Source: an uncultured Verrucomicrobia subdivision 3 bacterium (GTDB taxonomy: Bacteria; Verrucomicrobiota; Verrucomicrobiia; Limisphaerales; UBA11358). From it: 64,000 nucleotides of DNA. The position numbers and the translations under genes are program-made. The notes beneath the pieces are model-generated. The model did no database searches and was not told where the DNA came from. It saw only the letters and a list, made by a program, of their open reading frames with translations. Each line of letters opens with the position of its first letter. Position 1 is the stretch's first letter. Location: positions 1-64,000 of the forward strand of contig CAIQKM010000033.1 in NCBI GenBank assembly GCA_903872345.1. The letters run 5' to 3'. Shown in pieces: positions 6,851-40,027 of the stretch.

Positions 6851-7710
6851 GATTTGTTTAAAATTTCAGCAATCCATTTTGCCATGGGCGGGGGCACGGC
6901 ATTGCCGGCGGCATAAGCTTCTTCAGCGTTGGCTCCATCCAATCCGAGGGAAAGCCCATGTAACTCAGCCGTTCGGCCCCACTCAGCCATCTGATCCCAT
7001 CCGTTCTCCTCAGCAACGAGAAGCTCATTGCCAATATTGATCCGGCTGTTTTGTTTGTGCAGTTTATTTGGTGCCGCCAAAGTATAGCCAGCCCAAGCAT
7101 CCGCCGGTTTTGCGAGCCAGTCCGAGCCAGCCGATGCAGGTAGCGATTCCACTGCCCCGGCGTCAGCCAGGAATGATTCGCAGGGATGTTTTTTATAACC
7201 TGCGACCAGGAATAACCGGCGGCGTTTTTGGGGGATTCCGAAATATTGAGCATCCAGCACTCGCGCGAATCCCACATAACCGCATTGGGCAATTTCGCAG
7301 ATGACTGTTTGAAAGTCTGCGCAATCGTTTGAATGGAGCAGCGCCGGCACGTTTTCAAGGACCAGCCATTGTGGGCGTAAATGCCGGACGATTTGCATGA
7401 TCTCGAAAAAGAGTCCGCTGCGGCCGCCCGCAAGACCGGTTCGCGATTTATCACGCCGAGCTGCTCCCATGACACTGATGTCTTGGCAGGGAAACCCGGC
7501 GCAGATGCAGGCCACGGGGGACAGGGAATGTGCGCGCCAATCCCGGAGGTCTTTATATTGCCGTGCGTGAGGAAATCTATCGGCAATGACAGTCCGGTTA
7601 ACATCGTCGAGTTCGATTTGCCAGGCGGTCTGCCAGCCGGCCTGTTCAAAGCCGAGGCTGAACCCGCCGATGCCGGCGCAGATTTCTCCGATGGTTCGAT
7701 CATGGCTCAT
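6847..7710 (-). CDS. DNA (cytosine-5-)-methyltransferase
   Basis: C5-MTase motifs EICAGIGGFSLGFEQAG (I), GFPCQDIS (IV), LENVPALL (VI), RRRLFLVA (VIII), AAGNAVPPP (X). Confidence 0.93.
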   Translation of the reverse strand: MSHDRTIGEICAGIGGFSLGFEQAGWQTAWQIELDDVNRTVIADRFPHARQYKDLRDWRAHSLSPVACICAGFPCQDISVMGAARRDKSRTGLAGGRSGLFFEIMQIVRHLRPQWLVLENVPALLHSNDCADFQTVICEIAQCGYVGFARVLDAQYFGIPQKRRRLFLVAGYKKHPCESFLADAGAVESLPASAGSDWLAKPADAWAGYTLAAPNKLHKQNSRINIGNELLVAEENGWDQMAEWGRTAELHGLSLGLDGANAEEAYAAGNAVPPPMAKWIAEILNKS

Positions 7711-7892
7711 ACTCCCTTCGCTTGCCGGTCGATCTCCGCCAGCCGGGCATCCAGGGCGGTCAAAGTGACCGACTTGGCGGGCGACCAGGTTTCCGGTACC
7801 GGATCCATCTCGCGCCGGCTACGGCCTTGCGGCGTGGGCTTGCCCGCGCGCGACTGATGCACGCGGTTTAATTTGTGCCGGTAGGGGTTCAT
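7707..7892 (-). CDS. Small phage hypothetical protein
   Basis: 61-aa ORF overlapping the methyltransferase start. Confidence 0.45.
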   Translation of the reverse strand: MNPYRHKLNRVHQSRAGKPTPQGRSRREMDPVPETWSPAKSVTLTALDARLAEIDRQAKGV

Positions 7893-7902
7893 AGCATTTG
7901 GA

Positions 7903-7923
7903 ATTTACGATTGCCGATTTACA
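7903..7923 (-). repeat. Heptamer tandem spacer (ATTTACG ATTGCCG ATTTACA)
   Basis: Three 7-mers just upstream of the 7707..7892 gene. Confidence 0.8.
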
Positions 7924-8008
7924 ATTTGTTGATGGAATGCGCCGGGCCTTGAACCCGGAGTTGACCGATCAGTTGGCCGCCTTCGGATTGATTCCTCGCA
8001 TTCATAAT

Positions 8009-8563
8009 TTATTCGACTCCAGCCTCCGGCTGGTCTTTGAGCAGCGCCGTGCAGATTTTATCCACTTCGCCGTCCACGGCCTTGATGACCACGGCATCGT
8101 CGGCCTCGGTCAACTCAATGCCCAATTTTTTCAGGTCGGCCGCCGGCATATCGGCCAGCGCATCCTTGTTGGGTTTTTCCGTCACATTCAGCCAGGCGAT
8201 CGCATCTGCGCCGAAGCGCTGGTGGATCCGCTTGACCGTGGCCGCCTCATCGGCAATCTCCAACTTCCCATTGCGTTTGGTGAAGCCGATCTTGATGCCA
8301 TGGAACACATAGGTGCGCGGCTTGGTAAAGAGCGGTTTGTTCAACTCAATGGCCGAGTTCAGCACGGCCTTGCTTTCCTGAGCCCGCGCCACGGCCGTGC
8401 GGAGCCCGCGCAAGTGGCGAGCCTTCACGGCCGTCAATTCGGCTTCCAGGCTGGTTACGGCCGTGCGCACGGCATCGTACTCGCGTGAGAAAGCGGCGAC
8501 CCGCTTTTCGATGTCCGCCAGCGTCGCGCCGGCAATAGGTGTATTTTCAGTTTCAGCGATCAT
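8009..8563 (-). CDS. Host-nuclease inhibitor Gam-like protein (Mu Gam family)
   Basis: N-terminal coiled coil and KRNGKLEIADEAATVKRI..., WLNVTEKPNKDAL resemble Mu Gam-family proteins; correct position in a Mu early operon. Confidence 0.75.
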   Translation of the reverse strand: MIAETENTPIAGATLADIEKRVAAFSREYDAVRTAVTSLEAELTAVKARHLRGLRTAVARAQESKAVLNSAIELNKPLFTKPRTYVFHGIKIGFTKRNGKLEIADEAATVKRIHQRFGADAIAWLNVTEKPNKDALADMPAADLKKLGIELTEADDAVVIKAVDGEVDKICTALLKDQPEAGVE

Positions 8564-9270: not shown

Positions 9271-9639
9271 TCAGGCGATTCGCCAGGCGGCGAAGACGTG
9301 CGGGTGACGGTCCAGCAGCTGTTTCATGGCCGACTCTTCATCTTCGGCTTGCACCACGGTGCTGGCTTCGTGCGGGCCGTGGTCATCGGCCCAGGCATAG
9401 CCGAGGGCGAAGATCGGCTGGGACTGGGTCATTTCAAAAGCGGTTAAAATGGATTTCATGGCGGGTTGCGGACGGGTTATTTCGGCAATTATCTTTTCGG
9501 TTTGGGCGGCTTCGGCTTCCGCCGCGCGTTTTTGCATCCAACGTTTGGCATCGCGGCGGTCGCGCTGGTTCCGGTGCCGCTTGTCCGCCTTGTGCGGATC
9601 GCGGCCTTTGACCGGGACAAAATGGGAAGTGCGGCTCAT
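9271..9639 (-). CDS. Phage hypothetical protein
   Basis: 122-aa ORF in the early operon. Confidence 0.45.
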   Translation of the reverse strand: MSRTSHFVPVKGRDPHKADKRHRNQRDRRDAKRWMQKRAAEAEAAQTEKIIAEITRPQPAMKSILTAFEMTQSQPIFALGYAWADDHGPHEASTVVQAEDEESAMKQLLDRHPHVFAAWRIA

Positions 9640-9651
9640 GGGATTGATGAT

Positions 9652-10089
9652 TTAAGTGATGGTGATGATCAGTTCAATTTGTTGCGGTGGCCGGGCGGGC
9701 AATTCCGCCTCGGCCAGGCGCACGTTATTCCGGTTCGCCCAGGTAACGGCGGCGGCGCGGGATTTGAGGCGGTACACACACGCCCAGCGGCCCTTCGCGC
9801 CGGGGTTGGCATTCTGTTTGCGCCCGCCGAAGATGCCGGCGGCGGCATCCGTGTGGCCCAGCGGCAACGCTTCCAAAATCTCCAGCGATTTGAGGACATT
9901 CCAGGCGTTGCTCGCCACCCCCTGCCGGTGCTCCTCGCTCACGATATCTTCCGGCACGTCCCCGGCGAATACATACGTTTGCACCAGCGCGCGCCGGATG
10001 ATATGCGCCATGATCGTTACCAGCAGCTCGCGCTTGTACTGGCTCACCGCGCGTTCGGCATCGGCAATGGGCTGAGGCAGGGAGATCAT
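9652..10089 (-). CDS. Phage hypothetical protein
   Basis: 145-aa ORF in the early operon preceded by a heptamer spacer. Confidence 0.5.
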   Translation of the reverse strand: MISLPQPIADAERAVSQYKRELLVTIMAHIIRRALVQTYVFAGDVPEDIVSEEHRQGVASNAWNVLKSLEILEALPLGHTDAAAGIFGGRKQNANPGAKGRWACVYRLKSRAAAVTWANRNNVRLAEAELPARPPQQIELIITIT

Positions 10090-10445: not shown

Positions 10446-11525
10446 TTAAAACTTCTGCCCCTCCAATTCCCGCAGGCCGGCGTGCGCGCTCAGGACGTGG
10501 CCCCACGTCATCTTCTGATTGCGTTCGGCGGCGAGCTTGGCGGCCATGCGCAGGATCGTCAGCCACATGCCCAGGGCTTCATCTTCCACCATCCGCTTTT
10601 CCAGATCACGCGCCGCGCCGTCGCTGGGGGCCAGCTTGTAAGCGGCGGCAAACAAGTTTAAATCTTGTTGCGTCGGCACGTTGGGCAGTTGCAGCGCGCA
10701 CAGGCGGCGCCGCTTGGTCTGCCGCAAAATCTTCGCCACACTGCCGGTCTCCATCGCATCGCGAAAAACATTGGTTGCGCAGATCACCACGCCACATTGC
10801 TTTTCATCGAACAACTCGCGGATGAATTCAATCGTCTGGATCGGCATGGTGCTGTTGCCGCTGTCGCGGATGCAACGGTGGGCTTCATCCACGATCAGCA
10901 GCATCCGGTCATCAAACGCCTTGATAATGCGCTCGCGCAGCTTGGTAATGCTCATGTTGGTGGGGATGCGCAGGATCTCCGCCAGCCGCGTGAGAAAATT
11001 CAGCAGCGCCCCGCCCGTGGGCACCGAGACATAGATGGTGCTGCCATGATTGTGCGCGGCGGCGTACGCTTTTAACGCCTCGGTTTTACCAATCTGCATA
11101 TCGCCGAACACAAAGGAGATTTTCTGAAATTCCAGCGAGGCCGCGCACACTTCCCAGATACGGTTCGTCAGCTTGGTTTTGATGAACGCCAGCTTGCGGC
11201 CCTTGTCACGCCGATCTTGCAAATCGAAAAACGTTTCGATTTCCTTGACGATGTTCTCCAGGCTGCCCTCGTATTTGCCGCGAAACAACTGGCTCACCAC
11301 CGCCCCGGTGTAATTGATCAGCCGCGCCGTCTCATCAATCCCCAAGTCATTTTCAATATAGAAGGCGTGCAGCCGGCGGATGGCACTGCGCTGGGTGTCC
11401 GGCAGTTCGGCGGTGGCATGGTTCACCACGTCGCCGGGAATCTTGCTGCGGCTTTCGTTCATGGCCGCCATCACATGCGCGGGAGCGGTGGTTACGATGG
11501 TCTGTTTGGTATCGGTTTCTTTCAT
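10446..11525 (-). CDS. MuB-like AAA+ ATPase, transposition target selector
   Basis: Walker A GDMQIGKTEA, Walker B LLIVDEAHRC, N-terminal HTH; adjacent to MuA-like gene. Confidence 0.88.
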   Translation of the reverse strand: MKETDTKQTIVTTAPAHVMAAMNESRSKIPGDVVNHATAELPDTQRSAIRRLHAFYIENDLGIDETARLINYTGAVVSQLFRGKYEGSLENIVKEIETFFDLQDRRDKGRKLAFIKTKLTNRIWEVCAASLEFQKISFVFGDMQIGKTEALKAYAAAHNHGSTIYVSVPTGGALLNFLTRLAEILRIPTNMSITKLRERIIKAFDDRMLLIVDEAHRCIRDSGNSTMPIQTIEFIRELFDEKQCGVVICATNVFRDAMETGSVAKILRQTKRRRLCALQLPNVPTQQDLNLFAAAYKLAPSDGAARDLEKRMVEDEALGMWLTILRMAAKLAAERNQKMTWGHVLSAHAGLRELEGQKF

Positions 11526-11546
11526 GTTGCCCTTTTAAATGTGCGT

Positions 11547-13520
11547 TTAACTTGGTTCGCTGCGTTTACCGAGGATGCCCAGGAGTGAATCTCCGGCGGT
11601 ATCTTCGGAAATGGGTTCGGCGGCGGTGGCGGCCGGCGCGAGAATGTCGGCGGCGGCGCTCTTGCCCTCGGTTTTTACCAAGGTAGCGGCGGCCTTTTCC
11701 GCATCGGTCAGGGGCTTGCGCGTATCGAGCACGCGAGCATTGTGCTGGGCGGCCTCCAAGCGCTCCTTGGTGAGGCGTGCGCCCGTGGCCGCGACCGGGG
11801 CGAGCAACTCGGCCTCAACCTTGCGGGCGGCGCCGAGTTGCCGTTCCAGCCCGGCCACGTCATCGCGGCGGTGGGTTTGCCAGGCACTCACCACGCCCAC
11901 CCATGCGCCACGCGCGTCAAAGAGTTGCGCGGTGTGCGGGGACATGGGATTAACGACGGCGGTGAACTTGTCCCCCGGCGCAAAGTGATGGCCGAGGAAC
12001 CGCAGCGGCGCGGGCGAAATGGCATCGTCTTCAAACGTGATCAGGTGATCTTTGCCCACGGTCACTTCGCGGCCGGCCACGCCGCGCAGGAGCATGGCGG
12101 TTTGCTCGGGGCGGAGACGGGCCAGCCGGGCGCGGCCCTGGTCAAAGACTTCGCGCGGGCTCATCAAGCGCGGCTTGGGCGTGGCCAGGGCTTGCAGCAT
12201 GGCTTGCTTCTCCGCCGGCATGGCCAGAAACTTTTGCGCGGAGATCACGCCAATGTCCGGCAATTCAAAGTCCATGGTGGTGAGGCCGGCTTCCAGCCAG
12301 CCTTCCAGTTCGTGCTCGGTGCGCTGGTTGATGCGTTCGGTGATCTCTTCCACCAGCCATTTCGCCTGGTTCACTTCCAGGAAAGGCAGGCGCAACATGG
12401 CGGCGCGTGGCGCGGGCAGGGCGGCCATGGCGTTGATGAGCGCGCGGGCGTGACTCTCGCGACCGTAGAGTTCCTCCGGTTTGTTCAGGCGCGAGTTGCT
12501 GCCGGTCTGGCCGGGGAACTGCAGCAGGTCGGCGGTCTCGTTGTGAATCAGGTTGCCCAGGCTTTCCAGCGCGGCCTTGAAACGGAAGTTGCCCTTGCTG
12601 GCCCCGGCGTACTGCCCCGCAAAAGCCGATGCGCCTTCAATGCCTGAGCGTTCCACGGTGATCCGGCCGTTGCTGAGGTCAAACAGAATGCGTTCCAACT
12701 CTTCTTTGATCGCGGCGGTGCCGTGTTCCACCATGAGCACGCAACCCTCCGGGTGGAACCCAAATTCCGCCAGCACATGCGCCACGAGAAACAGCATTTC
12801 GTGATCCTTCAACCCAATGCGCGTGCCATCCTCCGCCTCCATGCGCGGCTTGATACCACGGGCAAACTGGCACGCGCTGAAGAGATCGTGGGCGTGAAGT
12901 TGGATCAGGCGCATGGGCTTGCGCTGGTTCAGGCCCACGACCATGAAGTCATGCCACATGTCGTCAAAAATGAACCGTTGCCCCACGGCCAGGCCCACAC
13001 GGGTGGTAAAGATTTTGGGGCGAAAATCGGCGGCGGTGCTGCGGCCTTGACGGGCGGCCTTCAATTCAAAATCCGAGGGCCGATGGCGCATCAAATTGTC
13101 GTAGCTGTAGCCGGACGGCAGCGTGCGACGAGAGACCGTGGCATCAATGCCGGGGATGGGTTCGCCGGCTTTGAATTGCCGCACAAATTCCCGGTAGGCC
13201 GGCGCGCATTTGCGCGCGTTCTGTTTGCACAGCCCCTGCCAGTATTGAATGAACTCCCGATCCAGCGTGCGATCTTCCGGCGCTTTGGCCCGGTTCACCA
13301 GGGCGCGCCACGATTGCGCCTTGCGCCAGTCATCATATTTGCGACGGGCGGTCTTGTAGCTCACTCCCATGCGCGCCGCGACGGCCTCCAGGCTTTTCTG
13401 GATCGGCCGGGTGACCTTGCCGAGTTCTTCGATCCAGAGCTCGACTTCCGAGCGGACGCTATCCGGCAACTGCATGAAGGCGGCCAGGTCGCTGGTAGGA
13501 ATTAGGGTGGTGGTGGTCAT
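11547..13520 (-). CDS. MuA-like DDE transposase
   Basis: 657 aa; N-terminal HTH (GVSYKTARRKYDDW), FIFDDMWHDFMVVG catalytic-core start, C-terminal Mu-type region; paired with MuB. Confidence 0.88.
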   Translation of the reverse strand: MTTTTLIPTSDLAAFMQLPDSVRSEVELWIEELGKVTRPIQKSLEAVAARMGVSYKTARRKYDDWRKAQSWRALVNRAKAPEDRTLDREFIQYWQGLCKQNARKCAPAYREFVRQFKAGEPIPGIDATVSRRTLPSGYSYDNLMRHRPSDFELKAARQGRSTAADFRPKIFTTRVGLAVGQRFIFDDMWHDFMVVGLNQRKPMRLIQLHAHDLFSACQFARGIKPRMEAEDGTRIGLKDHEMLFLVAHVLAEFGFHPEGCVLMVEHGTAAIKEELERILFDLSNGRITVERSGIEGASAFAGQYAGASKGNFRFKAALESLGNLIHNETADLLQFPGQTGSNSRLNKPEELYGRESHARALINAMAALPAPRAAMLRLPFLEVNQAKWLVEEITERINQRTEHELEGWLEAGLTTMDFELPDIGVISAQKFLAMPAEKQAMLQALATPKPRLMSPREVFDQGRARLARLRPEQTAMLLRGVAGREVTVGKDHLITFEDDAISPAPLRFLGHHFAPGDKFTAVVNPMSPHTAQLFDARGAWVGVVSAWQTHRRDDVAGLERQLGAARKVEAELLAPVAATGARLTKERLEAAQHNARVLDTRKPLTDAEKAAATLVKTEGKSAAADILAPAATAAEPISEDTAGDSLLGILGKRSEPS

Positions 13521-16442: not shown

Positions 16443-16819
16443 GCGATCTCAAGATGTCCTGCCCGGCGTGCGCGGGCCATGTGCAATTTCCTGAAGAGGG
16501 GATGGGCATCACGATTGATTGCCCTCATTGCGGCGTGCCATTCCTTTTGGAATCTCCCGAATCCATACGGGCATGGATGCAAAAGCAAAAATGGCCGTTG
16601 GATCGCGCCGCCGTCATTAAGACATCCGAAGCAAGGTTGAACGAGTTGCGGCTGGTAGGCATGAAATTTATTGGCGTGCTTGGCAGCAATACGCCTGGTG
16701 ACTGTGATGCTTGCCGCAGTATTAAGGGCCAGAAATTTCCCATCGAAGAAGTTCCACCATTGCCTTTGCCAGATTGCCAAAAGGAATTTTGCAAATGCAT
16801 CTATCTTGCTCTGTCATGA
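16439..16819 (+). CDS. Zinc-ribbon phage protein
   Basis: MSCPACAG...DCPHCG plus CDACRS and CKC; overlaps neighbours. Confidence 0.55.
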   Translation: MSDLKMSCPACAGHVQFPEEGMGITIDCPHCGVPFLLESPESIRAWMQKQKWPLDRAAVIKTSEARLNELRLVGMKFIGVLGSNTPGDCDACRSIKGQKFPIEEVPPLPLPDCQKEFCKCIYLALS

Positions 16820-17118
16820 ACGCCATTGCCAAATCTTACCCTTGTCCGCAGTGTGGCCAGCCCAATGGCGGCACGGAACTCCAGGTGCATCGCGGCTTGA
16901 AGTGTGGGGGCTGCGGGCTGGGTTACATTCCCGTGCGCATTGAAACGCGCACACGCGGGCATGAAGAAGCTCCCGCCGCGCTCTGGTGGGTGCTGGGCGT
17001 GGTGGCCGCGCTGCTGGTGGTGATCCTCGGCTGGGCGTTTGGCTGGGGCTGGGCGTTGTACCTCCTGCCCGTGCTCCTGCTGGCAGGCATCCTGGCGGCG
17101 GTGATCGTGAAGCGGTAA
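16816..17118 (+). CDS. Zinc-ribbon membrane protein
   Basis: CPQCGQ...CGGCG followed by two TM segments. Confidence 0.5.
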   Translation: MNAIAKSYPCPQCGQPNGGTELQVHRGLKCGGCGLGYIPVRIETRTRGHEEAPAALWWVLGVVAALLVVILGWAFGWGWALYLLPVLLLAGILAAVIVKR

Positions 17119-17483: not shown

Positions 17484-18002
17484 ATGAATAAAATCCTGTC
17501 GCTCGTTCTTATTGCGGCGGCCGCGTGTGCGGCGGCCCTTGCCACCACCGGTTGCGCCCATGCGCGGGTGAAGTCTGGCACGGAACATGCCCTGACCCAC
17601 CGCACGGTGGCCTTGCCGCCGGGTTGGACGTTGGCCGGCGTAAAAGTGGCCAATGGATCCACGGCCAATGCGTTTGACCCCTTGGCCCTGACCGCCCCTG
17701 GCGCGGCGCCGACCAGCTTCTGGGCCAGCCTGGTGGCACCCCGGCCCCGTGTCTTCACCGATTATCAAGAGACCTGGACGGATCGTTCCAGCGGCGGCGG
17801 CACGTTTGTGTTTACCGATCCGGCGGCGAGTGCCTTGGAGTTTGATCATACGAATCAATCTGCCCTGGGCGGCGGTCGCGTGACCAAGGCCGGCAGCATC
17901 ACCAGCACCATCACCACGAACGCGGTCAGCGCCATCACGGCCGGCGGCAGCGCGGTGGGCAATGTCATCGGCGCGGCGGCATCCGCTGCTGCTGGGAAGT
18001 AG
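17484..18002 (+). CDS. Phage lipoprotein
   Basis: MNKILSLVLIAAAACAAALATTGCAHA, signal peptide plus lipobox; ORF-track start at 17214 judged too far upstream. Confidence 0.6.
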   Translation: MNKILSLVLIAAAACAAALATTGCAHARVKSGTEHALTHRTVALPPGWTLAGVKVANGSTANAFDPLALTAPGAAPTSFWASLVAPRPRVFTDYQETWTDRSSGGGTFVFTDPAASALEFDHTNQSALGGGRVTKAGSITSTITTNAVSAITAGGSAVGNVIGAAASAAAGK

Positions 18003-18138
18003 TCACTGCGTGACGGCCACCATTTCTTATATTAACCAAAAGACCACATCCGGCGGTTTGCCAGTGTAATCCTGAAGTTGATCCGGCGCTGAACAAAATC
18101 AAAAGTCCGCGACACCAAAAAACTGGCTGCAATTTTTA

Positions 18139-18165
18139 ACCACAGAAAACACAGAGAACACAAAG
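18139..18165 (+). repeat. ACCACAGAAA/ACACAGAGA/ACACAAAG leader repeat
   Basis: Imperfect approximately 9-10-mer tandem repeat upstream of ATG 18181. Confidence 0.6.
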
Positions 18166-18180
18166 CAACCAATTAAAATT

Positions 18181-18423
18181 ATGATGCGAGCCAAAATGAA
18201 AGTTGAATCCGTGAAGTCTTTTGCTCATCCCCAGCAAGAAATCGTCATGCACCCGGTTTGCGGGAACAAGCCGTTCGGGCCGGCTGGCGAAAGCGAAGAC
18301 AATACCTTCGCGCGTTATTCGCCCTCCGGCGAATTAAAACTCACCATCTCGAACCCTGATCTGATCGGCCAGATTTTGCCGGGTCAAACATTCTATCTGG
18401 ATTTTACCGAACACGTCGCCTGA
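18181..18423 (+). CDS. Phage hypothetical protein
   Basis: 80-aa ORF preceded by an ACCACAGAAA/ACACAGAGA-type leader. Confidence 0.45.
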   Translation: MMRAKMKVESVKSFAHPQQEIVMHPVCGNKPFGPAGESEDNTFARYSPSGELKLTISNPDLIGQILPGQTFYLDFTEHVA

Positions 18424-18425
18424 AT

Positions 18426-18446
18426 CCCGAAATCCAAAACCCGAGA
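18426..18446 (+). repeat. Heptamer tandem spacer (CCCGAAA TCCAAAA CCCGAGA)
   Basis: Between stop 18423 and lipase ATG 18450. Confidence 0.8.
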
Positions 18447-18449
18447 CCC

Positions 18450-19205
18450 ATGCCCGAAACTTCCAACCACCCGAACGGCTTTAGCCTGGCGATTGCGCGC
18501 GACCTCGCCGGGTTCAGTGCCGTGGCCTATGAGCCCGTGATTCACGGTGCCGGCATCACGGTGCTGGATTGGCCGCCGCTGGATTTGCGGGCCGTGGTGG
18601 CCCGGTATGATGACCATACCGAGATCGCGTTCCGGGGCACGGCCAGTATCGAGGATTGGATTCTGGATTTAGACGTGCGCAAAGCCGCGCTGGCCTACGG
18701 GGTAAAGGTTCATGCTGGTTTTCTGCGGGCGGCGGAGGCGTTGCTGCCGTTGTTGCTGGCGGAGTTGCTGCCACCGGCCTTGGATAAGGCGGCGGTCAAA
18801 CCATTGTACCTCACGGGCCACAGCCTGGGCGGGGCGCTGGCCAGCCTGGCCGCCTTGTTCTTGCATCGTGAAGGATTGCCCGTGGCGGCGGTGTACACCT
18901 TCGGCTCGCCGCGCGTGGGTAACCGCGAATGGCGGGTGATCTATTCCGAGGCGCTGGGTGAATGCTCCTACCGGGTGATTGCCGAGGGCGATCTGGTGCC
19001 GTATCTGCCCGGCCTGCTGGATGGCTTCCGGCATGTGGGGCAGGAGATCATGCTCACGCCGCACGGCATCTATGCGCGGCCGGCGCATTGGTGGGAGGTT
19101 GCGCACGGCTCCTGGCGCGTGCTCGGGGCCATCAACAAGTTGGATGCCCAGTTCAACACCCAGTTCCATTCCATCAACCAAGATTATTTGCCCCTGCTCA
19201 AATGA
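18450..19205 (+). CDS. Class 3 lipase (Lipase_3 family, alpha/beta hydrolase)
   Basis: IAFRGTASIEDW, GHSLGGALA, FGSPRVGN, EGDLVPYLP (Asp), C-terminal FHSINQDY (His): complete canonical Lipase_3 motif set. Confidence 0.88.
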   Translation: MPETSNHPNGFSLAIARDLAGFSAVAYEPVIHGAGITVLDWPPLDLRAVVARYDDHTEIAFRGTASIEDWILDLDVRKAALAYGVKVHAGFLRAAEALLPLLLAELLPPALDKAAVKPLYLTGHSLGGALASLAALFLHREGLPVAAVYTFGSPRVGNREWRVIYSEALGECSYRVIAEGDLVPYLPGLLDGFRHVGQEIMLTPHGIYARPAHWWEVAHGSWRVLGAINKLDAQFNTQFHSINQDYLPLLK

Positions 19206-19396
19206 TTGAACCGACCAACATCGTCGCCAATCTGCCGGCCCCGGCCCAGGTGCAATCAACGCTGAATGCCTGGAACGTGGTGGCGCTGGGCGCGGGTGCG
19301 TTTGTCTCGCACGCCTATCACCTGATCGTCCAGGCCGGCGGCATCAAGCGCATCGCCAAGAATTTTTGGGATTCCACCCCCGCCACCAAACCATGA
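19202..19396 (+). CDS. Small phage membrane protein, possible holin
   Basis: MIEPTNIVANLPAP...VVALGAGAFVSHAYHLIV; 4-bp overlap with lipase gene. Confidence 0.45.
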   Translation: MIEPTNIVANLPAPAQVQSTLNAWNVVALGAGAFVSHAYHLIVQAGGIKRIAKNFWDSTPATKP

Positions 19397-19788
19397 TCAA
19401 ACTTTTTTCACCGCTGCTGGCCCAAACCGATCTGCCCTCCGTGCCGGCGGAAACGCTCAAGTGGACGCTCATTATTCTGGTGGCGGTGCTGCTGATCGCG
19501 GCGGTGATCGTGGGGATGGTGCGCGGGTCCCGGCCGGAGAAGGTGACGCTGAACGATGATCCGCCGCCGGAATTCCGCAAGGCGGCCAAGCGGTTCAACC
19601 ATGATCTGGCCGAATCCCGCCATCACGAAGTGACCCGGCGCTTGGAAGGCCACGATGCGGAGATCGAACAACTTTGGACAACGATGCGCAGCGAGGATGC
19701 CGCCATCCGGCGGGAAATGGGCGCAAAATTTGACGCCATCCTCCTGAGCTTGGGCGAAATTAAAGGCGAATTGAAAAGGCACCAATGA
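19393..19788 (+). CDS. Phage TM plus coiled-coil protein (lysis-region, holin/spanin-like)
   Basis: MIKLFSPLLAQ..., TLIILVAVLLIAAVIVGMV then coiled coil; overlapping ATGA. Confidence 0.5.
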   Translation: MIKLFSPLLAQTDLPSVPAETLKWTLIILVAVLLIAAVIVGMVRGSRPEKVTLNDDPPPEFRKAAKRFNHDLAESRHHEVTRRLEGHDAEIEQLWTTMRSEDAAIRREMGAKFDAILLSLGEIKGELKRHQ

Positions 19789-20048
19789 CCAGTCGCGAGA
19801 TCAAAATTATCAAAGCCGTGCTGGATTACCTGCACGCCCTGGATCAAGGCCAGGCTACCGAAGTGCAGATCCACGCCAATGCCTTTGGCGAGGCGTTTGG
19901 CACGCCCGCCCCCAGCGTGGCCGAACTGAGCGCCGCGCTGCGCGAATGCGATGCCCGCAAGTGGATCACCGGCATTCCGGCGCGGATCACCAACCGCATG
20001 AAATGGAACCTCAACGACGCCGGCGAAGCCGCCCGTTTGGAATTTTAG
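19785..20048 (+). CDS. Small phage protein upstream of terminase
   Basis: 87-aa ORF in the position of Mu gp26-like genes. Confidence 0.5.
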   Translation: MTSREIKIIKAVLDYLHALDQGQATEVQIHANAFGEAFGTPAPSVAELSAALRECDARKWITGIPARITNRMKWNLNDAGEAARLEF

Positions 20049-20111
20049 CATGAATGAAACCAGCCACTGCCAATTCAATTGCCGCCCCCATGGTGGCCAT
20101 GCCGCAGGCAT

Positions 20112-20675
20112 ATGAGCGCCCCAACCAAATTACGCGCGGGAACCAGCGAGCTAACCAAGCTCAAGGTGCTCTGGCGCGATACGCTGGCCGAATCCACGCA
20201 GGCTTATTGGCGCTCGCTCTTTGTCTCGGCGGATTCCACGCAAGCGCAAATCCGGCGGGAACTCCAGGCCAAGCTGAAGATCAAGCTGGATTACGATTCG
20301 CAGTTGAACAGCTTCCGCGACTGGGTGGCGCAGCAGGATGCGATGAACCAGGAGGCCGAGGACGCGGCGGAATTCGAGCGGCGCATTCTGGCGGAGCATC
20401 CCGATTGGACGAAGGATCAGGTGCGCGAGGAATTGATCAAACGGTTTTACCAGCGCGCCCTGGCCACCGGGGATGCGGATTTGGGCCTCAAAACCATTGT
20501 GCAGGATTTGAACGTACAGAAGGTGGAACTGGACAGCCGCAAGCTGGCGCTACTGGAGAAGAAGGCGGCGGCTTACGACCGGGCGCAGGCCGCGCTGGCG
20601 GAAGCGAAACAATCCAAGGGCGGCATCACGCCGGAAACCATGTCCAAGATCGAAGCGGAATTGAAATTGCTGTGA
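20112..20675 (+). CDS. Mu gp27-like terminase small subunit (DUF3486-like)
   Basis: Start MSAPTKLRAG; helical 187-aa protein directly before the large subunit with ATGA-type overlap. Confidence 0.65.
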   Translation: MSAPTKLRAGTSELTKLKVLWRDTLAESTQAYWRSLFVSADSTQAQIRRELQAKLKIKLDYDSQLNSFRDWVAQQDAMNQEAEDAAEFERRILAEHPDWTKDQVREELIKRFYQRALATGDADLGLKTIVQDLNVQKVELDSRKLALLEKKAAAYDRAQAALAEAKQSKGGITPETMSKIEAELKLL

Positions 20676-22039
20676 GCGAATCAACCACCATTACCAAAGC
20701 CAACGTGGCCGCAACGCAGTTGCCATACTTTATGCCGTATCAGGCGGCATGGATCAACGACACCGCCCATCTGCGCATTTGCGAGAAGGGCCGGCAGATC
20801 GGTCTGAGCTATGCCGATTCCTACGACAGCGTGCGCAAGGCCGCCATGAAGGGCGGCAAAGATGTTTGGGTGATGAGCCGGGATGAAGTGCAGGCCAAAC
20901 AATATATCCTGTACTGCAAACGGTGGGCCAATGTCTTGAAATACGCCGCCGATGATTTGGGCGAACAGGTGTTCACCATGGACAACGGCAAAGCGGTCAA
21001 GATCCAGGTGCTCACGTTTGCCAGCGGTGCCAATATATATGCGCTGAGCTCCAACCCAGATGCCATCGTGGGCAAGACCGGCCATGTGAAGCTGGATGAA
21101 TTTGCCCTGCACAAGGATCAGCGCCAGCTCTTCGCCGTGGCCAAGCCGGTCATTCAATGGGGTGGCACCCTGAGCATCATCAGCACCCATCGGGGCGCGC
21201 AGACCGTGTTCAACGGATTGGTTGAAGACGTGAAGGCGCGCGGCAACAAGATGGGCTGGAGCCTGCATACCATCCCCATCCAACGCGCCGTGGCCGATGG
21301 CATCGTGGAAAAGATCAATGCCGCCACCGGCAAGCACGAGACGCGCGAAGAGTGGCTCGCTCGCCAGCGCGCCGAGTGCATTGATGAGGAGCAATGGTTG
21401 CAGGAATATTGCTGCATTCCGGCCGATGAATCCTCCGCCTTCATCACCTATGATTTGATTTCCGGTTGTGAAGATGACTCTGCGAAGCGCGATTTTGCCT
21501 ACCTGAAAGATTGCAAAAACCCGCTTTATATTGGCTACGACGTCGCCCGCACCACCGACCTGAGCGTGATAGATGTTGAGGAAAAGGTGGGGGATGTCTA
21601 TTGGGAACGGTTGCGGATTGAGATGCGCGGCAAATCCTTTGGCGAACAGGAAGCCGAGCTTTACCAGCTCATGGCCCTGCCCCAAGTGCAACGGGTGTGC
21701 ATTGACGCCACCGGGCTGGGGATGCAACTGGCGGAACGCGCCAACCAACGCTTTGGCTTTCGCGCCGAAGCCGTGCGGTTTACCAACACGGTCAAGGAGC
21801 AGCTCGCCTACCCGCTGCGCGCCGCCCATGAAGATCGCACCCTGCGCTACAACCGCGATGAAAAGCTGCGCGCCGATCTGCGCGGCATCAAAAAGGAATC
21901 CACCGCCAGCGGCAACATCCGGTTCATCGGCGAAGCGGCGGATAGCCATTGTGACCGGTTCTGGGCCAAGGCGCTGGCACTGCATGCCGGGCAGGTGGCC
22001 AAGTCCTGGGGCGGCGGACGCGGGAGCAATCTGATATGA
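20672..22039 (+). CDS. Phage terminase large subunit (Mu gp28-like)
   Basis: GTG start; LRICEKGRQIGLSYA, VKLDEFALHKD, ISTHRG, YIGYDVARTTDLSVI nuclease motif. Confidence 0.85.
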   Translation: MSESTTITKANVAATQLPYFMPYQAAWINDTAHLRICEKGRQIGLSYADSYDSVRKAAMKGGKDVWVMSRDEVQAKQYILYCKRWANVLKYAADDLGEQVFTMDNGKAVKIQVLTFASGANIYALSSNPDAIVGKTGHVKLDEFALHKDQRQLFAVAKPVIQWGGTLSIISTHRGAQTVFNGLVEDVKARGNKMGWSLHTIPIQRAVADGIVEKINAATGKHETREEWLARQRAECIDEEQWLQEYCCIPADESSAFITYDLISGCEDDSAKRDFAYLKDCKNPLYIGYDVARTTDLSVIDVEEKVGDVYWERLRIEMRGKSFGEQEAELYQLMALPQVQRVCIDATGLGMQLAERANQRFGFRAEAVRFTNTVKEQLAYPLRAAHEDRTLRYNRDEKLRADLRGIKKESTASGNIRFIGEAADSHCDRFWAKALALHAGQVAKSWGGGRGSNLI

Positions 22040-26821: not shown

Positions 26822-27712
26822 ATGAAATCTGAAAACGAAATCAAAGCTCTCCCGCTGGAGGATCTCCAGAAATTCGTGATTGAACTGCGCGCGGTGCCCA
26901 CCGGCGACAAGTTCTACCCCACCGCCAAAGTGTTGATCGCCTTTGCGACCGGCCTGAAAAAGTACAAGGAACCGGAGCTCGTGGAAGTGACCAACGAGGC
27001 GGATCATCCCGTGCCCGTGGACGGCAAGGAAATCGCCGCCGGTGCCACCGGCAAGGTGTACCCCTGGCAAGCTGCCGCCCTTTCCCGCTGGCTCACGCCC
27101 GTGGGCAAAGTGGCCAGCCTGCTGCTGTTTCTGTTTGCCCTGGCGTTTACGGCCGGCGCACAGGTTCAGCCGTATGTGCTGGGCAGTGCCAGCCAGTACA
27201 ACGTGGTGGCCGTAAATGGTTTTTATGCCACCACGAATCTGAACGGCCCCACCTTCACCAACGCCACCGGCGGCGGCACGGTCTATTACACGGCCACCGT
27301 CACCAACGCCACGGCCATCTACACCAATGCCAATTGGGCTTTTAACGCCTCCGGCATTTGGACGAACACGCCCACCTACAGCACCAACAACCTGATCAAT
27401 CAGCCGGGCGTGGTGGGTTTGGTGAATTATGACACGGCGAATATCCAGTTCGGCGGCGCGCTCACGGCCGCCGGCACGGGCACCAATGCCCTGGCAAATT
27501 GGGATTTTTCCAATGACGCCGTGAATTGGCAGACCAACGCCCTCGTGCAAACGCTGATCCTGAACGGCACCCAGTTTGTGACCACCAACAGCACGCTCAC
27601 GCTGTTCGGTCCGGGGTACATACGTCTGAACTCCATCAGCATCTCCAACGGCGTGCCGTTCACCAATATCTTGGTGACCGTCAGCCGCAAACCCAGCCGT
27701 ACTGGCCCTTGA
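26822..27712 (+). CDS. Phage protein with internal signal/TM segment and Thr/Asn-rich exported domain
   Basis: About 95-aa N-terminal domain, then VGKVASLLLFLFALAFTAGAQ, then TN-rich region. Confidence 0.6.
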   Translation: MKSENEIKALPLEDLQKFVIELRAVPTGDKFYPTAKVLIAFATGLKKYKEPELVEVTNEADHPVPVDGKEIAAGATGKVYPWQAAALSRWLTPVGKVASLLLFLFALAFTAGAQVQPYVLGSASQYNVVAVNGFYATTNLNGPTFTNATGGGTVYYTATVTNATAIYTNANWAFNASGIWTNTPTYSTNNLINQPGVVGLVNYDTANIQFGGALTAAGTGTNALANWDFSNDAVNWQTNALVQTLILNGTQFVTTNSTLTLFGPGYIRLNSISISNGVPFTNILVTVSRKPSRTGP

Positions 27713-30910: not shown

Positions 30911-31564
30911 ATGAAAAAAATCCTGCTCATCGCTGATTCCGCCGCCGGCATTCCGGCTGATGTGGAAGCCAAACTCGAAACCGAAGTCGCCACCGCGCCC
31001 GCGCCCGTGCCCGCGCTGGATACCAAGCCCATCATTGCCGATGTGGAACACGCCATCGCCGCGCTGGCCGCGCAGCCCAACTTGCATCCGCTGCTCGGCT
31101 TCGCCCTCACCAACTTGCGCGGCGCGCACAACGCCCTCAAAGGCCACCTCAAGGGCTTGTCCGCCCTGCTGGTGCTGCTCGCCGTGCTGCTGGCGTTTGC
31201 CAGCCCGGCCCGCGCGCAAATCTTCTACGGCGGCGTGTCCGTGACCAACAGCGCGTTTGCGCCCGTGCAATCCTCGTTTGTGCTGCTCACCAATGTGGCC
31301 TCCTCCACGCTCCCCGCGCGCACGTTGCAAGTGCTGAACATCCAAACGAATCAACCCATTACCGTGTGGTACGCCTACGCCTTCGCCGGGTCCACCAACT
31401 TGTTCCTGGTGAATTCCAACATCTACACCTTCCCCGCCAGCAATGGCTGGGTGAATGGCGCGACGTTCACCACCAACGTGGCCAGCGTCTTTAACAGCGT
31501 GCCGATCCAGCCCTACGGCCTGATCAACCTCGGCGGCTATACCAACACCGTCCTCTTTCAGTGA
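30911..31564 (+). CDS. Phage protein with internal signal/TM segment and exported domain
   Basis: LSALLVLLAVLLAFASPARAQ at about residue 80, then TN-rich region. Confidence 0.6.
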   Translation: MKKILLIADSAAGIPADVEAKLETEVATAPAPVPALDTKPIIADVEHAIAALAAQPNLHPLLGFALTNLRGAHNALKGHLKGLSALLVLLAVLLAFASPARAQIFYGGVSVTNSAFAPVQSSFVLLTNVASSTLPARTLQVLNIQTNQPITVWYAYAFAGSTNLFLVNSNIYTFPASNGWVNGATFTTNVASVFNSVPIQPYGLINLGGYTNTVLFQ

Positions 31565-31603: not shown

Positions 31604-31996
31604 GTGAAACTGACTTGGACTCCACCAACCGGCGGTGCCGTGGTGCTTGGCGATGATTCGGTGAAATCCACCATCATCGTCGAGCAACTTGATGCCCCGG
31701 CGCTCGTTCAGAAACTGCTGTTCTTTCGCGGGGTCACCGCCCAACTGGTGGCGCGCGGCGGGGATGAAGGCACGTTTGTGTGCGTCATCCAGCCCGCCCT
31801 GGCCAATGCCGATGCCGCCAGCGCGTATCTCAAAACGGAGCTGGCCCGGTCCGGTCAGGCGGGCAGTCTCGCCTGGGGCCGCGTTTCCGCCATCTTCACG
31901 TTCAACGGTGCCGTGCTGCGCCGGGTGACCGTGGCGGAATTGAACGGCGCGCGGCTGCGGCTGCGCTACTCCTTCGGCTTCGCCTCCCTCACCTGA
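31604..31996 (+). CDS. Phage tail-module hypothetical protein (GTG start)
   Basis: 130-aa ORF preceded by a heptamer spacer. Confidence 0.5.
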   Translation: MKLTWTPPTGGAVVLGDDSVKSTIIVEQLDAPALVQKLLFFRGVTAQLVARGGDEGTFVCVIQPALANADAASAYLKTELARSGQAGSLAWGRVSAIFTFNGAVLRRVTVAELNGARLRLRYSFGFASLT

Positions 31997-32024
31997 TTTC
32001 CAATTGCCAATTGCCAATCTCCAA
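31997..32024 (+). repeat. Heptamer tandem spacer (TTTCCAA TTGCCAA TTGCCAA TCTCCAA)
   Basis: Between stop 31996 and ATG 32029. Confidence 0.85.
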
Positions 32025-32028
32025 AATT

Positions 32029-33315
32029 ATGAGCAAAACCCTGTTTAAAGCCTCTTTAAAGGCCCTGAGCGCCTTTGCCGCCCTCGGCGTGTTTGCCATC
32101 CTCGGTTCCTTTCTACTGGCCCTGTTTTTGCGCTTGGTAACCCTGGCCTGGCACTGGGGCTGGCGGCTGTTCGCCTTGTTGGCCATTTGCCATCTGCCAT
32201 TGGCCATCTCCGCCCGCGCCCAGACCACGGCGGTCTTTTTTTCAATGCAGAACCTGACTGGCGGCGTGAACAACCGGACGATTAACCTTTTGCCGGACAC
32301 CGCCAATGCGCCGGTTTTTGTGGGCACCAATTTGCTCCAACTCGGGCCAATCCAGCTTCAACCGGTGGGCGGCCAAGTGACAACCAACCTGGTGCCGTGG
32401 GGCTACTCGCTCTATGTCCAGGGCTGGCCGCGCCCGGTTCATATTGTGGTGCCCAGCAGCACCAACACGCTCAATGTGGTGGGCATGATTAACACCAATC
32501 TCTACTGGCCGCTGACGATTTACCAAATGACGGCCACCGGCACCAACGGCATTAATGTTACGCAAACCAACAACCAGGTAATCATTGACGGCAGCGGGCT
32601 GGATGCCGCCGGCACCGCGTGGGCGACATTTTCCTTTAATGCCACCAACGGCATCTATGCCTTTAATCTCGCCTCCAGCTATGGCCTGCCCGCCGCCGGC
32701 GTGGTGGGATTGGGATCGGCGGCGTTGGTAAGCACCAACACGTTTTACAGTCAGGGCGTTTCGGGTTACTTGGATATCCTGTACAACCTCGCGCAAGGCC
32801 AGGTGGGCTGGCTGGTCGTGAGCAACTTGTCTTCCATTCAGGCCGTGCCGCCATTGTTGGATTACTTGTGGACCGCCGGAAACAATACGGCCTCGCTCGC
32901 CACGTTTGCCGCCGTGAGCACCAATCAAATCACGGTTTACGGCGCGGGCACGGCCAGCGCCAACGGCACCTACACCTTCAACGCGGCCGCCGGTGTTTGG
33001 ACGAATGCCGCCACGGCCGATACGATCACCAACAGCGGTGCCTACCTCATCATTGCCACCGGGGCCACCAAACTCTACAAATCGTCCAATGCCCTGGCCT
33101 ATCCGGCCGGCAGCGGCGCATGGTTCAATGGCAGCGGTTACAGTGGCAGTTCGCCCATGCCCTACAATGCGTTTCTGCGGGTAACGGATTATTCGCTCAA
33201 TAATGTTGCGCCCACCAACATTCCCGGCAAAGCCCTGACCGGCCTTGCCACCAACACAGTCGTGCCGATCTCCGCGCATGTGACCAATGGCGTTGTTACG
33301 TGGACCAGCCCGTAA
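32029..33315 (+). CDS. Phage protein with N-terminal TM/signal region and TN-rich exported domain
   Basis: Start MSKTLFKASLKALSAF after a heptamer spacer; RLFALLAICHLPLAISARAQ signal-like segment. Confidence 0.6.
   Translation: MSKTLFKASLKALSAFAALGVFAILGSFLLALFLRLVTLAWHWGWRLFALLAICHLPLAISARAQTTAVFFSMQNLTGGVNNRTINLLPDTANAPVFVGTNLLQLGPIQLQPVGGQVTTNLVPWGYSLYVQGWPRPVHIVVPSSTNTLNVVGMINTNLYWPLTIYQMTATGTNGINVTQTNNQVIIDGSGLDAAGTAWATFSFNATNGIYAFNLASSYGLPAAGVVGLGSAALVSTNTFYSQGVSGYLDILYNLAQGQVGWLVVSNLSSIQAVPPLLDYLWTAGNNTASLATFAAVSTNQITVYGAGTASANGTYTFNAAAGVWTNAATADTITNSGAYLIIATGATKLYKSSNALAYPAGSGAWFNGSGYSGSSPMPYNAFLRVTDYSLNNVAPTNIPGKALTGLATNTVVPISAHVTNGVVTWTSP
32179..32213 (+). repeat. Heptamer tandem repeat inside coding sequence (TTGGCCA TTTGCCA TCTGCCA TTGGCCA TCTCCGC)
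   Basis: Five 7-mers encoding part of the LLAICHLPLAISAR signal-like segment. Confidence 0.7.
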
Positions 33316-37559: not shown

Positions 37560-38849
37560 ATGGCCATCGGCTTAAAAGTCATGTGCTCCATCCAGAGCGG
37601 CAATGTTGGCGGCGGCTTGCGCGAATCGCCGGTAAAAGCCCTCAACGGAAATCAGCTTCGGCCCGTACTGCTCACGCGCATGGGGTATGCTTGCAAGGGG
37701 GTGAATGGAATTGCGGGCTACTATTCGGGGATGTATGACAACCAGGCGGTTTTGGTGGCTCCCGGCGTTTATGCCCCCTGGCCCTACGCAAAAAACGCCG
37801 TCGATGATATGAACCGGCAGTGGACGCTTTACTCCGGGTTGGTCATCAATTATTCGAATTCGCTGCCCGGAGCTTCCCCCGACAGTTTTACCTATACTTC
37901 ATCGCTGGCGGGAACTGCCCCGCAGACGAGCTATGTGCAAACCAATCCGTCCCTTTCGGCCTCGGATCATGATTGGGGCAAATCCCCGTCCAACGGTAAT
38001 TATCAATGCCAAATCACCTCGGACACCTCATGGGCGCAGCAACAATACGATCCCGTTATCCCGCCCCATGCGATCTTTGCCACCTGGAGTCTTTCGCTCA
38101 GCGGCGGGATTGACGTGGCCGGCATTTATTCTGCCGTGCATGGCGACTTCTTTGGTGCCAGCTTTCCGAGTTTGTTTACGAGCGGTTTTCAGAACATTTA
38201 TTACAAGGATTTTCCCGCCACCATCAGCGGTGCGCAACTGGCGCCCTCGCTTATCAATCCGGCGGAGTGGGATGGCTCCATCACGCTGGGCAGTCCTTAT
38301 ACCGGCGGTCCTTATTACACCGGGGGATCGACCTACACCGCCTTTGCCGGCGCGGGCACCCTGCTTTCCGGCATCGCGGCCGCCAACGGTTGGCGGATCT
38401 CCGGTTCGGCCATCGGCGGCGGCGGCAACATTACCATTTTTCGGGGCCAGGCCACTTTGGACACCACCGTGGTACAGCCGGCCGTGCCCTTTTGGATCGG
38501 CCTTTACACCGAGGCCACCTGGTCCCCGGTGAGCTTTTACGATGGCACCAAAAGCAGTCCGCAGCCGAAGGCAGCCCCGATAAAATCCATCAAACTATTT
38601 CGCATCGGCAAGCTGCCCACGGATGGCACCATCATTGCCTACGAATCATCGGGAATTTTCCAGCTTCCTTTTCCCGCGCAAACGCCCTTTCCCATTCAGG
38701 ATTTTGCCGGTTTGGGCGTCGTGGCGCGCTATTATTTTGTCGTGGTGGGTCAAGATCCGGAAAGCTGGGCGAGCCAATATGGCTACGTCTTTGATTTGAC
38801 CGCCGACAACGCCAATGTCACCGCCGATAATACCACCGTAACCCTATGA
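37560..38849 (+). CDS. Tail-associated protein
   Basis: ATG 37560 (MAIGLKVMCSIQSGN); 4-bp overlap with next gene. Confidence 0.5.
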   Translation: MAIGLKVMCSIQSGNVGGGLRESPVKALNGNQLRPVLLTRMGYACKGVNGIAGYYSGMYDNQAVLVAPGVYAPWPYAKNAVDDMNRQWTLYSGLVINYSNSLPGASPDSFTYTSSLAGTAPQTSYVQTNPSLSASDHDWGKSPSNGNYQCQITSDTSWAQQQYDPVIPPHAIFATWSLSLSGGIDVAGIYSAVHGDFFGASFPSLFTSGFQNIYYKDFPATISGAQLAPSLINPAEWDGSITLGSPYTGGPYYTGGSTYTAFAGAGTLLSGIAAANGWRISGSAIGGGGNITIFRGQATLDTTVVQPAVPFWIGLYTEATWSPVSFYDGTKSSPQPKAAPIKSIKLFRIGKLPTDGTIIAYESSGIFQLPFPAQTPFPIQDFAGLGVVARYYFVVVGQDPESWASQYGYVFDLTADNANVTADNTTVTL

Positions 38850-40027
38850 AAAAACTCCTTGCTTCCAGCCTCCTATTTTTGGCCTTGCTTGCGCCCGTTT
38901 CCGCGCCTGCGCAAATCACCAATGTCTTCATCGGCACCACCCCGAATGACGGCACCGGCGATACCCTCCCGGTGGCCTTCACCAAGCTCAACTACAACAA
39001 TGCCTACTTCGCCGCCGCCCTTGCTTCCAACACGGCCGCCATCGTGAATTTGGCCTCCGTAACCAACTTGGTTTATCAATCGCATTTGTACCCGCTGTTG
39101 GCGCCGAATCCCTTCACTTTTACCGGTTCAAATTACATCGGCCAATTCACCAACGTCATCATCTTCAATTCCGGGGGCATCGTCAGCGGGAGTGGCGGCG
39201 GATTATCGCCTGGCACCACGCTGATCACCACCAATGTCATGAGCACCAACGGGGGCACCACTTGGCAGCTCTGGCAGCCCACCGCAGGCGCGGTGCAGCT
39301 TGCCGTTTTGACCGTGGCCGGGGTGGGAGCCGTAAACGTCAACGGAACCGACCATCCCGAATTGATCGGCCGCACCAATTCCTTCTTCGGCCAGACGTGG
39401 CAATTTGCCAACCCAATCAACCCCACTGACGGGGCCAACAAAGCTTACGTGGACGCCCGCACCGGCTACCTGCCGGGCACCGTGATCCAGCTCGCGCCGG
39501 AATGGAACATGCAAGGTCAATTTACGACGACGAATTCCAGCCTGAATTTCTTTTTGAATCAGGCCGCTAGCAACGTGCTTTCCATGTCATTTGCCTACCA
39601 ATCGGCCCCCATCGCATCCATTGCCTTGGATAGCACTGGCACCAATGTGATATTGGGTGTCACCAACAGCACTCCGGCCGGCTGGCAAATCTATGTGACC
39701 ACCAACCTCCTTGGCCCCGTCTGGCTACCCTTGGCCACCAACGGCCTCACCTGGTCAACCAACAGCGGGATCATCAGTGAAACCTTCCCCATGCCTAACC
39801 AGAGCCAAGCGTTCTTCAAGGTGGCCATCCCCGGAGCGGCCAGCATCATCGCCAGCGTGCCCGTGGCAATGCCGTTCCTTAGCCTGGCTCCCTTTACCGT
39901 CACCCATTCCACCAACAGCACCATGGGCTACGGCGCGGGCCTAGTGGCCTGCGACCAGACCAATATCTACATCAGCATTGGCACCAACGCCTGGCGGCGC
40001 TTGGCCCTGGCCACAAACAGTTGGTAA
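38846..40027 (+). CDS. Tail fibre-like protein with N-terminal signal peptide
   Basis: MKKLLASSLLFLALLAPVSAPAQ then NVFIGTTPNDGTGDTLPVAFTKLNYNNAYF, a motif seen in tail fibre proteins. Confidence 0.6.
   Translation: MKKLLASSLLFLALLAPVSAPAQITNVFIGTTPNDGTGDTLPVAFTKLNYNNAYFAAALASNTAAIVNLASVTNLVYQSHLYPLLAPNPFTFTGSNYIGQFTNVIIFNSGGIVSGSGGGLSPGTTLITTNVMSTNGGTTWQLWQPTAGAVQLAVLTVAGVGAVNVNGTDHPELIGRTNSFFGQTWQFANPINPTDGANKAYVDARTGYLPGTVIQLAPEWNMQGQFTTTNSSLNFFLNQAASNVLSMSFAYQSAPIASIALDSTGTNVILGVTNSTPAGWQIYVTTNLLGPVWLPLATNGLTWSTNSGIISETFPMPNQSQAFFKVAIPGAASIIASVPVAMPFLSLAPFTVTHSTNSTMGYGAGLVACDQTNIYISIGTNAWRRLALATNSW

Follow-up and report, generated by a model that had tools for sequence, protein, structure and literature searches.

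In the textbook account, phages lyse Gram-negative hosts with a holin, an endolysin and spanins. The DNA analysed here, a stretch of 64,000 nucleotides (the window) corresponding to contig C33 in a draft genome of 6.5 Mb, raises the question of how a prophage is released that carries a class 3 lipase in the lysis position and no recognisable endolysin, as an initial annotation made from the sequence alone had described it. It is established that mycobacteriophages use lipolytic enzymes for lysis (PMC6116005), and our literature search found nothing on point on a Verrucomicrobia phage lipase or on a class 3 lipase in phage lysis.

A Mu/B3-like prophage carries the lipase

The lipase gene lies in a transposable prophage covering roughly 5.4-40 kb of the window, which encodes a MuB-like AAA ATPase, Mu Gam (3.3e-7), a terminase, a portal with a Mu F domain (1.4e-8) and an HK97-type capsid. 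That the prophage is transposable is indicated by the MuB-like ATPase and the putative MuA-like transposase (10446..13520), and the ATPase, Gam and Mu F matches are those of Mu/B3-like transposable phages. The terminase and portal genes stand in Mu order, and TerL is syntenic with that of B3 and 43% identical to TerL of Pseudomonas phage B3 and Sinorhizobium phage Aussie. The host of the prophage is probably a member of the Verrucomicrobiota; a Limisphaerales contig (L250, WRPG01000034.1) has the same lipase-tmB-gp26 order with transposase and MuB-like genes close by. Four putative virion or tail genes (26822-27712, 30911-31564, 31780-33315 and 38846-40027) encode a transmembrane (TM) and 'ARAQ'-like signal-peptide segment followed by a Thr/Asn-rich beta domain, an arrangement that is unusual among phage structural proteins. 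The cassette genes initially placed at 17484-19788 are all present there (Table 1).

Table 1. Prophage features in and around the lipase cassette (positions in the window)
Feature	Position	Strand	Evidence
MuB-like AAA ATPase	10446-11525	-	AAA_22 1.5e-13, TniB 3.2e-7 (Pfam)
Putative MuA-like transposase	11547-13520	-	Inferred from size and position only
Zinc-ribbon and two-TM hairpin protein	16774..17118 (start may be 16818)	+	Two TM-like windows; homologues in L009, L013, L017
Lipoprotein, 172 aa, cluster 35	17484..18002	+	Hydrophobic N-terminus and LATTGC lipobox
80-aa protein	18181..18423	+	Aligns with C-terminal end of phrog_6978 (unknown function), PHROGs 1.8e-9
Class 3 lipase, 251 aa, predicted catalytic S125, D181, H240, no signal peptide	18450..19205	+	Pfam, PHROGs, PDB, AlphaFold
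tmA, 64 aa, weakly hydrophobic	19202..19396	+	Hydropathy peak 1.37; ATGA overlap with lipase
tmB, N-terminal TM and coiled coil, Mu gp25 (releasin, DUF2730) position	19393..19788	+	ATGA overlap with tmA
Winged-helix-like protein, Mu gp26 / B3 ORF29 position	19785..20048	+	ATGA overlap with tmB
Terminase small subunit, Mu gp27 position	20115..20675	+	Homologues directly 5' of TerL in relatives; B3 synteny
Terminase large subunit TerL	20681..22039	+	phrog_5909 1.5e-39 (PHROGs); ORF opens earlier, at 20054

The enzyme is a class 3 lipase with a complete predicted triad

Judged from its sequence, the ORF at 18450-19205 encodes a true class 3 lipase with a complete predicted Ser125-Asp181-His240 set. 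It matches Lipase_3 (PF01764) with an E-value of 2.6e-28 and 99.1 bits, above the curated cut-off of 22, and phrog_21992 'esterase/lipase' with 1.7e-27, while its top PDB match is the Rhizomucor miehei lipase (9.6e-21). The AlphaFold model (mean pLDDT 77.7, with a C-terminal region of low confidence) resembles fungal lipases and feruloyl esterases. The fold and triad are common to the fungal-type class 3 lipases (R. miehei 1tgl/4tgl, feruloyl esterase A), whereas the window lipase is phage-encoded, lacks a signal peptide and has a divergent C-terminal third. S125 and D181 are invariant in an alignment of 12 phage homologues (A4); the His column of that alignment is offset by two residues for the window lipase, and H240 aligns directly with the His of the closest homologue, L145, which is 54% identical. 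The class 3 lipase assignment made initially was confirmed. A chance or misread ORF is ruled out by the PF01764 profile, the fold and the 54% identical homologue. Among the matches listed, none had the LysB family sequence or fold, and the best were class 3 lipases.

No signal peptide was seen in the lipase, in agreement with the initial annotation, which makes release via a membrane lesion plausible. The holin-dependent release suggested there on this ground remains plausible, but the chromosomal class 3 lipase that the genome also encodes (G000:C188) apparently has no signal peptide either, so the missing signal peptide is not diagnostic of holin-dependent export. This second, chromosomal-type lipase (9387-9983 of G000:C188) has no phage-gene matches nearby. 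In the tree, phage lipases split from chromosomal lipases of related genomes with support 92/96; recent capture of a host gene is therefore not favoured, though the branch of the window lipase is long.

The lipase sits in the endolysin position and is coupled to its neighbours

By synteny, the window lipase sits in the endolysin position of Mu/B3-like phages, in line with the lysis position first claimed for it: the endolysin gene of B3, Aussie, Leptolyngbya phage Lsp-JY19 and Mu stands just 5' of gp25-gp26-gp27-terminase. The Mu/B3 lysis region (gp22 endolysin, gp23/23.1 spanins, gp25 releasin) has its position and the gp25-gp26-gp27-gp28 order in common with the window, whereas the window has the lipase where Mu and B3 have the endolysin, a spanin pair was not recognised, and tmB has no detectable homology to DUF2730. 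Operon coupling is seen directly in the sequence, since ATGA overlaps chain lipase to tmA, tmA to tmB and tmB to the gp26-like gene, and no promoter-like site was found between 16.0 and 21.5 kb. A 4-nt overlap of the lipase stop with the next start occurs in 9/16 loci checked, the window included. An overlapping i-spanin/lipoprotein (Rz/Rz1) pair was found in none of 17 cassette loci by a detector of limited sensitivity.

Mu gp25 has been shown experimentally to be a releasin, and in active transposable phages DUF2730 genes always lie shortly 3' of the endolysin (PMC9239132). The tmB protein has the gp25-type architecture: its N-terminal TM (residues 25-43) is followed by the greater positive charge, on the C-side, giving a predicted N-out/C-in topology, and its gene lies shortly past the endolysin slot and before gp26. 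It gave no PF10805 match in Pfam at E up to 1 and no significant hhalign result, and with no detectable sequence homology to DUF2730 we did not accept it as a proven releasin. The next protein (19785..20048) gave a full-length profile alignment with Mu gp26 / B3 ORF29 (P 0.0015-0.003). Two small TM proteins had been described after the lipase; a clear TM is present only in the product of 19393-19788, which also has the coiled coil, whereas the 64-aa product of 19202-19396 peaks at a hydropathy of 1.37. This protein, tmA, is a holin-like candidate from position only, and the two-TM protein at 16774..17118 is an alternative holin candidate. Homologues of tmA lie 3' of the lipase in L012, L145, G042:C53 and G033:C31, and also occur in the lipase-less G017, G000:C40 and G008. 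In L007, a near relative by TerL (72%), the slot holds a Phage_holin_10 protein (E 9.1e-15). There, at 7290-8021, and at 4439-5083 of L005, a holin-like segment (Phage_holin_10 in L007) and a lipoprotein are fused in one ORF, which sits in the lysis slot of these lipase-less relatives.

On the upstream side, the lipoprotein (17484..18002) has no Pfam match and is possibly an outer-membrane lysis partner. G033:C31 and G033:C152 encode homologues of it 5' of the lipase, and further homologues occur in the lipase-less G000:C40 and G008:C36; in other relatives its position is taken by an outer-membrane beta-barrel or a different lipoprotein. A small putative outer-membrane beta-barrel with a C-terminal Phe/Tyr replaces it 5' of the lipase, or of the hydrolase found in its stead, in L003, L004, L019, L021, L023 and L024, and likewise in L031, L132, L133, L145, L146 and L151; this barrel is possibly a superinfection-exclusion protein or a lysis partner. 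In L009, G103 and G014 the slot encodes a homologue of the 80-aa protein.

The slot is conserved and its hydrolase replaceable in related phages

The order lipoprotein or outer-membrane barrel, lipase, tmA, tmB, gp26, terS and TerL recurs in about 30 related phages whose TerL has diverged to about 30% identity with that of the window; such loci were also drawn from genomes and IMG/VR. In a combined census, for which some of the loci had been selected by lipase, the lipase lies 2.6-4.3 kb before the TerL stop in 23/54 loci, including phages with TerL only 28-47% identical. The lipase keeps its slot across diverged phages and is ATGA-coupled to the next genes; it is no stray insertion. Of 22 non-redundant TerL relatives in which the slot can be seen (loci showing tmB or gp26 and no less than 2.5 kb; duplicates L020 and L032 and the window itself not counted), nine carry a class 3 lipase, four an unrelated alpha/beta hydrolase and nine neither. 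The unrelated hydrolase, modelled as a carboxylesterase/lipase-like fold, occupies the slot in these four relatives and in two G014 prophages.

The lipoprotein and tmA occur without the lipase in related prophages of the same genome (G000:C40) and of G008; G000:C40 (L117/L118) is a second Mu-like prophage, with no lipase between these two genes. Insertions in the lysis zone of relatives encode receiver-domain proteins (L019 8590-8967, L023 1371-1814) and DNA adenine methylases (L003 7949-8722, L110 1223-2002), and the region also holds glycosyltransferase genes. A DUF1353-like protein occupies the lipase slot at 1869-2663 of L022 and 1597-2049 of L123, the latter matching the PHROGs 'tail assembly chaperone' phrog_1158 (2.4e-16). 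Some short genes of relatives escape the gene caller applied to them.

Class 3 lipases accompany lysis genes in some unrelated phages

A first scan of viral contigs with the lipase alone as query found nothing, while a profile-guided, alignment-based scan gave at least 581 viral stretches with lipase relatives. Outside the Mu-like group, the lipase adjoins a GH108 endolysin in L169 (2.2e-19) and a GTA_holin_3TM protein in L216 (3e-6), and in L210 it is preceded by a T4-type phage lysozyme (1.3e-8) and followed by an Rz/Rz1-like pair. Overlapping Rz/Rz1-like pairs, called in these phages from architecture with no family match, lie near the lipase in seven phages, of which L202, L207 and L218 are near-copies; a strict spanin-pair detector found them near the lipase in 4/63 loci and in none of 402 kb elsewhere. 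Many fetched class 3 lipase loci outside the Mu-like group have no recognised lysis gene adjoining. We regard the unrelated-phage loci as independent support, at the level of gene neighbourhood, for phage class 3 lipases belonging with lysis genes. In L169 and L210 lipase and endolysin genes occur together, so that these lipases stand beside endolysins and not in their place.

The endolysin gap is clade-wide

No peptidoglycan hydrolase family was found in the prophage with Pfam on the scanned proteins and PHROGs on subsets, which confirms the lack of endolysin motifs noted earlier, and none was found among 28 ORFs on both strands from 16 to 20 kb, the range named at that time for a search for cryptic endolysins. 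Lipase-less relatives, some with recognisable holins, likewise have no recognisable endolysin, so the gap is clade-wide and gives no argument for the lipase replacing an endolysin; the lack of a muralytic enzyme is a puzzle apart from the lipase. One Peptidase_M14 match lies somewhere in relative set A1 (Pfam; gene not located), and the Pfam scan of relative set A2, with 25 of 62 families listed, does not count as evidence of absence. More distant relatives have an apparent amidase (L042) and M15-type peptidase (L044) in the slot, from sequence motif only. The products of L040 8228-8824 and L030 7462-8064 look lysozyme-like by eye; they have no Pfam or PDB match and hence were not counted as endolysins.

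Discussion

We lean towards the view that the lipase is a late lysis operon component of the Mu/B3-like prophage which, like LysB, hydrolyses envelope lipids and aids virion release. Given that it occupies the endolysin slot and that the same enzyme type stands beside true lysis genes in unrelated viruses, it probably helps to break host membranes. Its release route, substrate and contribution to lysis we infer as follows: the cytosolic lipase would build up during late expression, would be let out via a membrane lesion from a neighbouring small membrane protein (tmA, tmB or the two-TM protein at 16774-17118) and would then cleave acyl esters of envelope lipids, which may be outer- and/or inner-membrane phospholipids or glycolipids. 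This hydrolysis would finish the disruption of the envelope and free the virions, the part that LysB plays in the hosts of mycobacteriophages. The sequence data give partial support to the initial interpretation, in which a lipolytic enzyme may be central to lysis by analogy with LysB.

LysB is a mycolyl-arabinogalactan esterase that provides an accessory third lysis step in mycobacteriophages (PMC5707550, PMC6116005). Both enzymes are alpha/beta hydrolases, LysB being encoded in the lysis cassette and the window lipase in the lysis-cassette position, whereas the window lipase belongs to another family (class 3), the envelope is presumed to be LPS-type diderm in place of mycolate, and an endolysin was not recognised here. 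A lipolytic enzyme in a Gram-negative phage lysis cassette, resembling the window, is the lipase 'part24' of a Pseudomonas syringae pv. actinidiae phage; although of another family, it adds killing that depends on its catalytic residues, with the outer membrane as its proposed target (PMC12173070). In contrast to the window lipase, 'part24' is an Aeromonas hydrolase homologue with a carbohydrate-binding domain and adjoins a recognised holin and endolysin (PMC12173070).

Several observations speak against a lysis role: 9/22 TerL relatives have neither hydrolase, two related prophages carry lipoprotein and tmA with no lipase, cargo genes (Dam methylases, receiver proteins) lie in the same zone, and many unrelated lipase loci are not beside lysis genes. 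An alternative is a cargo (moron) or dispersal enzyme: freed at lysis, it would work on debris or exopolymer, breaking down lipids, surface layers or receptors there, or release nutrients, without lysing the cell. The patchy presence of the lipase, the Dam methylase, receiver-domain and glycosyltransferase genes in the region and the outer-membrane barrel genes often found directly 5' of it agree with such a role, and PghP of a Bacillus phage, as cited in PMC12173070, offers a precedent for a released surface enzyme. We nevertheless think this unlikely, though worth serious consideration, given the ATGA coupling to lysis-position genes, the position fixed across very diverged phages, the replacement by a non-homologous hydrolase at the same place and the lipases near spanins and endolysins in unrelated phages. 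Independent moron expression, named earlier as a refutation of a lysis role, is likewise less likely given the ATGA coupling, yet has the nine enzyme-less relatives on its side.

That the lipase stands in for the endolysin, with lysis by lipid hydrolysis alone, possibly by triggering host autolysins, would explain a prophage with no recognised peptidoglycan hydrolase. This reading is not supported and appears improbable: the absence is not tied to the lipase, since holin-bearing relatives without it share the gap, L169 and L210 encode both a lipase and an endolysin, and a cryptic endolysin of an unknown family may exist in the prophage. Hence an accessory LysB-like lipolytic lysis protein fits the sequence data better than a substitute endolysin. 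It is more improbable still that the enzyme is virion-associated and used at entry; a Cylindrospermopsis virus does have a class 3 lipase about 2 kb from its tape measure gene, but the window lipase lies between lysis-position genes and the terminase, outside the tail module, and is not fused to structural domains.

Beyond this locus, we propose tentatively, and with more doubt than conviction, that class 3 lipases may be a recurrent lytic class in diderm phages, equivalent to LysB and acting on outer- or inner-membrane lipids in the final step, and that in Verrucomicrobia transposable phages they, or the unrelated alpha/beta hydrolase, may work with a novel endolysin type. The lipase-slot clade points to a peptidoglycan-cutting protein still to be identified. 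If the accessory lysis role is true, lipid hydrolysis as a lysis step would extend to diderm bacteria, and the lipase would be a source of enzymes attacking outer membranes.
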